NCBI GenBank assembly: GCA_020851455.1
Contig: JADZCT010000040.1
Span: forward strand, 1-64,000
Length of the DNA: 64,000 bases
DNA from: Gemmatimonadaceae bacterium
GTDB taxonomy: Bacteria > Gemmatimonadota > Gemmatimonadetes > Gemmatimonadales > Gemmatimonadaceae
Direction of reading: 5' to 3'
The notes beneath the pieces are model-generated. The model was not told the DNA's origin, made no database searches, and was given only the letters and a program-made list of their open reading frames with translations. The translations under genes were made by a program, and so were the position numbers. Shown piece by piece: positions 50,066 through 56,133 of the stretch. The first letter of the stretch is position 1. Each line of letters opens with the position of its first letter.

Positions 50066-51217
50066 ATGCGAATGCTAGTTCTTGGCGCCGGCCTGCAGGG
50101 CGCCGCATGTGCGTATGACCTGCTCCAGCAGCCGTCCGTTGACGAGGTAGTCCTCGCGGACCGCCAGTTCACCCAGTCACCGAAGTTCTTCGAGGCGCTG
50201 CGCGGGCACGCCAAGCTCAGGCAGGTCACGCTCGACGCCACCGACAGCGCGGCCGCGGGGAAGGCGATGGAGGGTGCTACGGCGGTGATGTGCGCCCTGC
50301 CTTACTACTTCAACCTCGAGATGGCGCGCGCCGCGATTGCCGTAGGCGCACACTTCTGCGACCTCGGCGGCAATACCGGGATCGTCGAGGAGCAGAAGAA
50401 GCTGGATGGCGACGCGAAGGCGAAGGGTCTGACCGTGGTTCCTGACTGCGGCCTCGCACCCGGGATGGTGAATATTCTCTCGCAGATGGGCATTGACCGG
50501 TGCGACGAGACCTCGAGCGTGCGGATATTCGTGGGCGGCCTGCCGCAGCACCCCGAAGGCGTGCTCAAGTACCAGGTCGTGTATTCGCTCGAGGGCGCCC
50601 TCGACTACTACACGTCGCCATCATGGGTGCTGCGGAGCGGCAAGCGCGTGCAGATTGGCGCGCTCTCCGAAGTCGAGCCCGTGAAGTTCGACGAGCCCCT
50701 CGGCGAGCTCGAAGCGTTTCACACCGCTGGCGGACTTTCGACCATGGCGCACCGGTATGAGGGCAGGATCCAGACGATGGAGTACAAGACGCTCAGGTAT
50801 CCCGGGCACGCGAAGCTGATGTCGGCGATCCGTGAGCTCGGGCTGATTGACCCGAATCCTGTCACTGTGCGCGGAGTGCAGGTCGTGCCGCGCAATGTCG
50901 CGGCCGCCGTGATGACCCAGCGGCTGCTGAAGCCCGGGAGTCCCGACCTTGTCGCGCTGCGGGTAGTGGTGGAGGGGAAGAAGGGCGGGAAACCCGTACG
51001 CCACGCATGGGAACTTGTGGACCGCTACGACCCGGGGACCGGAATCAGCGCGATGGAGCGGACGACCGGCTTTTCGCTCGCTCTCACCGGACTCATGCAG
51101 GCCGCTGGCAAGATCCGGCCGCCGGGCGTGCACACGCCGGACGAGTGCGTGCCGGGTGGGGAGTACGTCGCCGAGCTTGCGAAGCGCGGCGTCAGGATCG
51201 CTTACGCGCAGGAATAG
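50066..51217 (+). CDS. Saccharopine dehydrogenase-family oxidoreductase
   Basis: 383 residues. The NAD(P)-binding loop is MLVLGAGLQGAACAYDLL at the N-terminus, followed by TAVMCALPYYFNLEMARAAI and GAHFCDLGGNTGIVEEQ, all typical of the saccharopine dehydrogenase family. DCGLAPGMVNILSQMGI and the later GLSTMAHRYEGRIQTMEYKT match its catalytic domain. Closest in build are lysine dehydrogenase and LYS9-type enzymes of lysine breakdown or synthesis; carboxynorspermidine dehydrogenase is another option. The start ATG 50066 lies before a second ATG two codons on. No other lysine gene is nearby. Confidence 0.85.
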   Translation: MRMLVLGAGLQGAACAYDLLQQPSVDEVVLADRQFTQSPKFFEALRGHAKLRQVTLDATDSAAAGKAMEGATAVMCALPYYFNLEMARAAIAVGAHFCDLGGNTGIVEEQKKLDGDAKAKGLTVVPDCGLAPGMVNILSQMGIDRCDETSSVRIFVGGLPQHPEGVLKYQVVYSLEGALDYYTSPSWVLRSGKRVQIGALSEVEPVKFDEPLGELEAFHTAGGLSTMAHRYEGRIQTMEYKTLRYPGHAKLMSAIRELGLIDPNPVTVRGVQVVPRNVAAAVMTQRLLKPGSPDLVALRVVVEGKKGGKPVRHAWELVDRYDPGTGISAMERTTGFSLALTGLMQAAGKIRPPGVHTPDECVPGGEYVAELAKRGVRIAYAQE

Positions 51218-51272: not shown

Positions 51273-51301
51273 TTGACATCATCCGTCTATCCGGATACAC
51301 T
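51273..51301 (+). promoter_or_regulatory. Sigma-70 promoter of metF-metH
   Basis: TTGACA (51273-51278), a 17-base spacer and TACACT (51296-51301). The -35 is perfect and the -10 matches four of six. It is the best housekeeping promoter in the window. Transcription from about 51308 would include the whole SAM-II-like element and the terminator. Confidence 0.8.
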
Positions 51302-51317
51302 GATGAACAACAACTGA

Positions 51318-51374
51318 AGACGTGGCGATTTCGAGGCAAATTGCGGCCACGTAAAAAGACCTGCTAAAGCGCCG
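51318..51374 (+). ncRNA. Candidate SAM-II-like riboswitch upstream of metF-metH
   Basis: ACGTGGC (51320-51326) and GCCACGT (51346-51352) form a perfect 7-bp P1 stem. Directly inside it comes GATTT (51327-51331), and TTGC (51341-51344) precedes the 3' arm. After the stem comes AAAAAG and then GCTAAAG (51363-51369). This order, stem-GATTT-TTGC-GCCACGT-AAA-GCTAAA, is the conserved core of SAM-II as I recall it. GGCA (51335-51338) can pair with TGCT (51362-51365) to make the H-type pseudoknot, with one G-T pair. Ten bases before it is the expected transcription start; an intrinsic terminator follows and metF-metH are the genes that should be shut off by SAM. Confidence 0.62.
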
Positions 51375-51405
51375 GCCCGGTTCGCCTCACCGACCCGGGC
51401 TTTTT
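51375..51405 (+). terminator. Intrinsic terminator in the metF leader
   Basis: GCCCGG (51375-51380) pairs with CCGGGC (51395-51400); after one mismatch three more pairs (TCG/CGA) close a six-base loop. TTTTT follows at once (51401-51405). It lies between the riboswitch core and metF, on the coding strand, so it is the likely expression platform for transcription control. Confidence 0.75.
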
Positions 51406-51421: not shown

Positions 51422-52350
51422 GTGCAGCCGTGTCGGCGGGCTGCGCCGCCCTTCATACCGGAACCCAGACCAGCACCTTTGTTCTCCGTCTCGTTCGAGT
51501 TCTTCCCGCCCAGGACCCCGGAATCCGAGGAGCAGCTCTGGCGCGCGATCACGCGCCTGGCACCCCTCGCGCCACGGTTCGTCTCCGTGACATACGGCGC
51601 CGGCGGGAGCACCCGCGAGCGAACCCATCGCACGGTTCGGCGTATCCTCTCCGAGACTGACCTCGTCCCGGCGGCACACCTCACCTGCGTGAGCGCCACG
51701 CGAGAGGAGATTGACGCGGTTGCCGACGCCTACTGGGAGAACGGAGTGCGCCACGTCGTCGCGCTCCGCGGAGATCCGCCCTCGGGCGCGACGCGGTACG
51801 AGCCGGCTCCGGGCGGCTACGCCTGGGCCTCCGAGCTGGTCGCGGGGCTCCGGGCCCGCCACGACTTTGAGGTCAGCGTTGCGACGTTTCCGGAGGGCCA
51901 CCCGGACTCGCTGTCGCTCGACCGCGAGCTGGACAACCTCAAGCGGAAGGTTGACGCCGGAGCGTCGCGCGCCATCACGCAGTTCTTCTTCGACAACTGG
52001 ACGTACCTGAGGTTCGTGGACCGGGCCCGGAAGGCCGGGATCACGGTACCGATCGTACCGGGCATCATGCCGGTGACGAACTTCGGACAGATGACGAAGT
52101 TCGCGGCCATGGCGGGAGCCAGCATCCCGCGCTCGTTCCCGCTGCTCTTCGAGGGCCTCGAGAACGACCCGGAGACGCGCAAGCTCGTCGCGGCCACGGT
52201 CGCTGCCGACCAGTGCCAGAAGCTCGCCGACGCCGGCGTGACGGAGTTCCACTTCTACACCCTGAACCGCGCGGACCTCACATACGCGCTGTGCCACATA
52301 CTCGGCCTGCGCCCATGCGGCGCGCAGCCGAAACGACTGGAGAGCGGCAC

Positions 52351-52354
<4 letters not shown>
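51422..52354 (+). CDS. metF: Methylenetetrahydrofolate reductase
   Basis: About 310 residues. MetF reduces 5,10-methylene-THF to 5-methyl-THF with FADH2, providing the methyl group for MetH. The family start [19 protein letters not shown] carries the catalytic Glu; [36 protein letters not shown] and [20 protein letters not shown] are the FAD and folate site strands, and the C-terminus [20 protein letters not shown] is typical. The start is unclear: GTG 51422 is chosen, TTG 51404 lies in the terminator T-run, and TTG 51479 would begin just before FSVSFEFF. The stop overlaps the metH start (GTGA). Confidence 0.93.

Positions 52355-56133
<3,779 letters not shown>

Follow-up and report, generated by a model that had tools for sequence, protein, structure and literature searches.

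The locus described here lies on contig G000:C102 of a 2.96-Mb Gemmatimonadota MAG, whose nearest named relatives are Gemmatimonadetes/Gemmatimonadaceae MAGs from freshwater and soil; the entire stretch of this contig that was analysed (64,000 nucleotides) is referred to below as the window. A leader at positions 51273-51405 (forward strand, as are the other stranded features of the window given below) combines, from 5′ to 3′, a sigma-70 promoter, a SAM-II aptamer and an intrinsic terminator, and is bounded by a saccharopine-dehydrogenase-like gene (50066-51217, same strand) and by the metF-metH pair. The assignment of these two genes is supported by matches to NCBIfam TIGR00676 (343 bits) for metF (51479-52354) and TIGR02082 (1676 bits) for metH, the B12-dependent methionine synthase (52354-56133, start approximate). 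The metF frame has no ATG, and its homology-based start, obtained by alignment to the ATG of a relative (G001), is the TTG at 51479; a second in-frame TTG (51404) overlaps the end of the terminator T run.

The promoter (TTGACA-17-TACACT, 51273-51301) shows 10 of 12 matches to the sigma-70 type, while only 0.1 sites of such quality would be expected by chance in shuffles of the region. When the promoters are aligned, almost every metF leader of the genus has similar hexamers, with the -10 element ending 16-22 nt 5′ of the P1 stem of the aptamer.

SAM-II riboswitches are known mainly from alphaproteobacteria. The aptamer in the window (51312-51373) was recognized by the Rfam model RF00521, which matched 51312-51387 over its full length, with 35.2 bits and all conserved blocks aligned (E 1.5e-6 in a search of 301 bases against all of Rfam; 3.4e-6 when the whole genome was searched). 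As this score is 0.8 bits below the curated cut-off of 36, no Rfam entry is found in the window at curated cut-offs. A clade-specific model, for which 26 leaders from relatives and from the genome's other copy were used but not the window locus, gave its sole match in the window at 51320-51382, with 70.5 bits and an E-value of 8.8e-16. Searched with RF00521, 58 of 61 genomes of relatives contain a match, 50 of them above the cut-off and with a top score of 61 bits. The core blocks GATTT (51327-51331), TTGC (51341-51344), CCACGT (51347-51352) and GCTAAAG (51363-51369) are all in place, including the unpaired conserved bases of the family (GATTT, TTGC, GCTAAA); the order of P1 stem and P2 pseudoknot is that of SAM-II, and the genes 3′ of the aptamer belong, as is usual for SAM-II, to methionine/SAM metabolism (metF and metH here, met genes in relatives). 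The core is conserved before metF throughout the genus. Membership of the leader in the SAM-II family is thus established as far as sequence and structure can define it, and the window aptamer presumably binds SAM.

These results uphold much of a first-pass annotation of this DNA, namely the near-consensus promoter, the core order P1-GATTT-TTGC-GCCACGT-GCTAAAG, the SAM-II identity, and metF-metH as the regulated genes. Its suggestion of a divergent SAM-II or SAM-V-like subclass had to be abandoned: a covariance-model search that picked up RF00521 returned no SAM_V match in the window leader up to an E-value of 10, the long-loop SAM-II model (RF01726) stayed at 15 bits (E 2.7), far short of its cut-off (44), and the core agrees with that of ordinary SAM-II. 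Common to the leader and to these two classes is just the general idea of an H-type pseudoknot. Two further covariance matches in the region (WT1-AS_3 and mir-3130) are far below their cut-offs and due to chance.

In the predicted fold and in the alignment of leaders, P1 is formed by ACGTGGC (51320-51326) and GCCACGT (51346-51352), 7 bp in the window; its sequence is almost invariant and therefore gives no covariation support. For the P2 pseudoknot, the alignment and covariation point to pairing of GGC at 51335-51337 with GCC at 51371-51373, within a 3′ side that spans 51363-51373 (GCTAAAGCGCC) and also contributes to a second short pseudoknot helix (GC at 51343-51344; pairs 51343-51364 and 51344-51363) that is invariant in 26 aligned leaders. 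GGC/GCC changes to CGC/GCG in relatives, the first P2 pair being G-C in 46 and C-G in 20 of 88 distinct leaders, and 225 of 264 P2 pair cells are formed, versus 200 ± 4 (maximum 219) with the 3′ strands swapped between leaders. The alternative P2 pairing proposed at first, GGCA/TGCT, was rejected, as the extra base that it needs, directly before GCTAAA, varies freely in relatives.

The distribution of SAM-II extends well beyond this genus. Of 200 genomes sampled evenly over the phylum, 137 contain SAM-II (E 0.001), while none of 14 control genomes has a match at the same threshold; a single genome can carry as many as five copies. These leaders precede metF(-metH), metH, panB, thrC-like, metX, hom, metY, MoaD/ThiS-like and ATP-grasp genes, some of the names being taken from sequence reading rather than from a model match. 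A Proteobacteria-wide survey gives metY, metA, hom-metXC and metXW as SAM-II targets (PMC4239095), without metF-metH or panB, so that both of the latter look like added targets here. The window's genome has exactly one further copy (L080, G000:C105:27052-27124), which precedes panB, a MoeB/ThiF-like gene and a threonine-synthase-like gene; a MoaD/ThiS-like gene is found behind a SAM-II in relatives. Taken together, this gene content suggests that homocysteine is made by a sulfur-carrier-dependent route that SAM controls. In one relative (L075, G018:C13:14227-14583) two SAM-II leaders stand back to back in divergent orientation, before panB and an ATP-grasp gene. A plasmid search found no related leader. 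SAM-I, the alternative class, is absent from the window's genome and rare in relatives; two genomes (G048 and G041) carry SAM-I above its cut-off together with a SAM-II match, while a 2007 survey saw no species with both.

The intrinsic terminator (51374-51405) consists of a 7-bp stem (51374-51380/51395-51401) with 3 inner bp, followed by TTTT with its last T at 51405. The hairpin at 51374-51401 has a predicted energy of -16.2 kcal/mol, albeit a strict terminator pattern (loop of 3-8) did not pick it out. A hairpin with a T-rich run was found in 86 of the 88 distinct leaders of relatives, before several different genes. The first-pass annotation was thus right in proposing a transcriptional platform, but not in regarding it as unusual for SAM-II. 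In fact, the original description of the class reported an OFF switch with a near-consensus promoter just 5′ of P1 and, in many cases, terminators after P2 (PMC1273637), and further precedents for termination behind SAM-II exist (PMC2258182, PMC9373788). The window leader shares with the alphaproteobacterial metA motif (RF00521) the core, P1 and pseudoknot, the spacing, the promoter just 5′ of P1 and the terminator behind P2 (PMC1273637), and differs from it in its host (Gemmatimonadota), its target (metF-metH) and a terminator whose 5′ half complements a P2 strand. For the metZ SAM-II attenuator of S. meliloti, the prediction is likewise that SAM brings about termination, leaving a short leader RNA, but that leader precedes another gene in another phylum, and the available text describes no repressor operator at its promoter (PMC9373788). 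Translational control via P2 was considered and rejected, as the terminator intervenes and no ribosome-binding site for the homology-based metF start is near P2, which lies more than 100 nt 5′ of that start (51479) and therefore cannot hide its ribosome-binding site.

A transcript ending at 51389, i.e. before synthesis of the terminator 3′ arm, is predicted in its minimum-energy fold (-22.5 kcal/mol) to pair 51333-51348 (GAGGCAAATTGCGGCC) with 51374-51388 (GGCCCGGTTCGCCTC), the latter strand doubling as terminator 5′ arm and loop and carrying a GCCTC element present in most metF leaders. This predicted antiterminator and the terminator are mutually exclusive, and P1 and P2 are excluded as well; P1, with which it competes, forms first, a point that speaks against it. 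The full-length minimum-energy fold holds the terminator, as expected of any leader of such kind.

In the leaders of relatives, the 5′ half of the terminator hairpin repeatedly carries the complement of one P2 strand. Among panB, metX, hom, metY and ATP-grasp leaders, an L1 with GCCGCC is accompanied by GGCGGC in 19 of 21 cases and by its G-U version GGTGGC in the other 2, and an L1 with GCCGCG by CGCGGC (4 of 7), its G-U version TGCGGC (1) or the shortened CGCGG (2). In metF leaders GAGGC is matched by GCCTC, with outer pairs that are G-C or C-G in several of them, while in many metH leaders it is the P2 3′ strand (AAAACGC or AAAAAGC) that is complementary to a loop sequence of the hairpin (GCGTTTT or GCTTTTT). 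When all leaders are pooled, the mean length of the longest complementary run between L1 and the platform is 4.75 versus 4.09 ± 0.09 with platforms swapped. The effect is weaker in predicted folds, where L1 or the P2 3′ strand is paired to the platform in 55 of 86 cases versus 43.6 on average (maximum 51) over 20 swaps, a moderate excess. The leaders compared are related and not independent of one another.

These P2-strand complements borne by the terminator suggest that closing of P2 by SAM disrupts an antiterminator and brings transcription to a halt. With SAM scarce, both strands that form P2 would be free, and L1/P2 5′ strand together with part of the P1 3′ strand would pair with 51374-51388, letting RNA polymerase read through into metF-metH. 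With SAM abundant, P1 and P2 would be locked and the antiterminator blocked, so that the hairpin at 51374-51401 would fold and transcription would stop at the U run near 51405. We infer SAM-dependent OFF switching from the exclusion of P1, P2 and the terminator alike by the predicted antiterminator; the folding order, the antiterminator itself and the direction of switching are those of the folding model.

A second potential regulatory element, absent from the earlier interpretation, was found in the promoter. A 24-bp palindrome, ATCCGTCTATCCGGATACACTGAT (51281-51304), covers the promoter spacer and the -10 element, and a part of it, ATCCGttcATCCGGAT, recurs in nearly every promoter spacer of the aligned metF leaders. 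Genomes were searched for it by sequence pattern only: of the genus genomes searched with the full palindrome (≤1 mismatch), a single one lacks it at metF, and a shorter exact core is present at metF in 17 of 18, while a reversed control pattern matched nowhere. The same core precedes metF leaders of further genomes beyond the genus; it was not found before the other, non-metF SAM-II leaders. The only other exact core in the window's genome overlaps the start codon of a gene (G000:C114:69131-70063; L118, L173) whose product, P0002, combines an ArsR HTH (PF01022, 49.6 bits) with a methyltransferase domain (PF08241, 74.2 bits). In each of the 30 orthologues studied from across the order, 12-13 of the 13 core bases are retained; in 29 the operator core is no more than 30 nt away from the start of the gene itself, and in the remaining one (L199) the best site is 67 nt upstream. 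In other genera the exact pattern is found almost only at the regulator's own gene.

An ArsR HTH joined to a methyltransferase domain is also the architecture of SahR. The regulator gene is unlinked to metF in this genus, while distant homologues lie directly 5′ of metF in Sphingomonas and Rhizobium and 5′ of ahcY-metH in Leptospira. In one relative (G020:C22, L221), metF directly follows a methyltransferase-domain frame, similar to the alphaproteobacterial ArsR-metF pairs; neither the GCTAAA core motif nor the operator was found at that locus. SahR and SamR are ArsR-family regulators of the SAM cycle, with an ATC-N10-GAT palindrome, autoregulated, and SAH-responsive in Desulfovibrio (PMC4239095, PMC8877191). 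P0002 shares with them the domain pair, the ATC-N10-GAT palindrome, a site at its own gene and homologues beside metF or ahcY-metH, and differs from them in being unlinked to metF and in that the promoter it targets drives a SAM-II riboswitch as well. The core at the regulator's own start and the company of its homologues thus make it resemble SahR. By this analogy, a dimeric autoregulated repressor would bind the putative operator over the -10 element; repression and the effector are likewise assigned by analogy with SahR. The conserved operator and the SahR-like regulator indicate that metF-metH is probably under dual control, by a repressor and a riboswitch, and a single switch may thus let the cell read a second signal besides SAM.

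Overall, we consider it quite probable that the leader acts as a SAM-II OFF switch on metF-metH transcription, with the repressor at the promoter as a separate layer. Among the alternatives, the one that survives best, although we regard it as unlikely, is that the SAM-II aptamer and terminator are insensitive to SAM, control being exerted by the promoter repressor or at translation, and the terminator limiting basal expression. A terminator behind the SAM-II of S. meliloti metA is not predicted to be SAM-responsive (PMC9373788), and the swap test on predicted folds was just moderately positive; on the other hand, terminators occur in nearly all related leaders before several genes, their elements complementary to P2 strands covary, and the distance of P2 from the metF start speaks against the translational version. 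Far less probable is a variant aptamer of the SAM-II/SAM-V fold with another ligand, e.g. SAH, which would be in line with the score just below the Rfam cut-off, with two linker changes (AAAAAGACC in place of AAAACAACC) and, by analogy with SahR, with a nearby repressor that may sense SAH. The core bases, however, are those of the family, relatives sharing this core exceed the cut-off by a wide margin, SAM_V has no match, and known SAM-II rejects SAH more than 1000-fold (PMC1273637). Chance resemblance, the promoter being an ordinary one and the terminator that of the same-strand upstream gene, might have been suggested by the sub-threshold Rfam score; it has a negligible probability and is already refuted by sequence conservation, given the match to a clade model made without this locus, the retention before metF across the genus and the absence of matches in the controls.

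The SAM-II OFF switch with a repressor at its promoter invites a more specific reading, for and against which we see even chances: two sensors in series on one metF-metH promoter, an autoregulated SahR-like repressor that acts at initiation in response to SAH or SAM, and a SAM-II attenuator that responds to SAM during elongation. The riboswitch is of a known type; less expected, perhaps, are a SahR-like operator on its promoter and terminators that carry covarying complements of P2 strands. In the open-licence papers searched we found no report of SAM-II in Gemmatimonadota and no description of a SahR-like repressor paired with SAM-II on one promoter.

The present analysis extends SAM-II from mainly alphaproteobacteria to most of the phylum Gemmatimonadota, with metF-metH and panB operons as targets. 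The covarying complements of P2 strands turn the antiterminator into a concrete, testable proposal for a class of riboswitch on whose expression platform little work exists. With a conserved repressor site lying in that same promoter, control of methyl metabolism by two signals can be put to a direct test; if the two-sensor reading is true, metF-metH output would follow the SAM/SAH balance.
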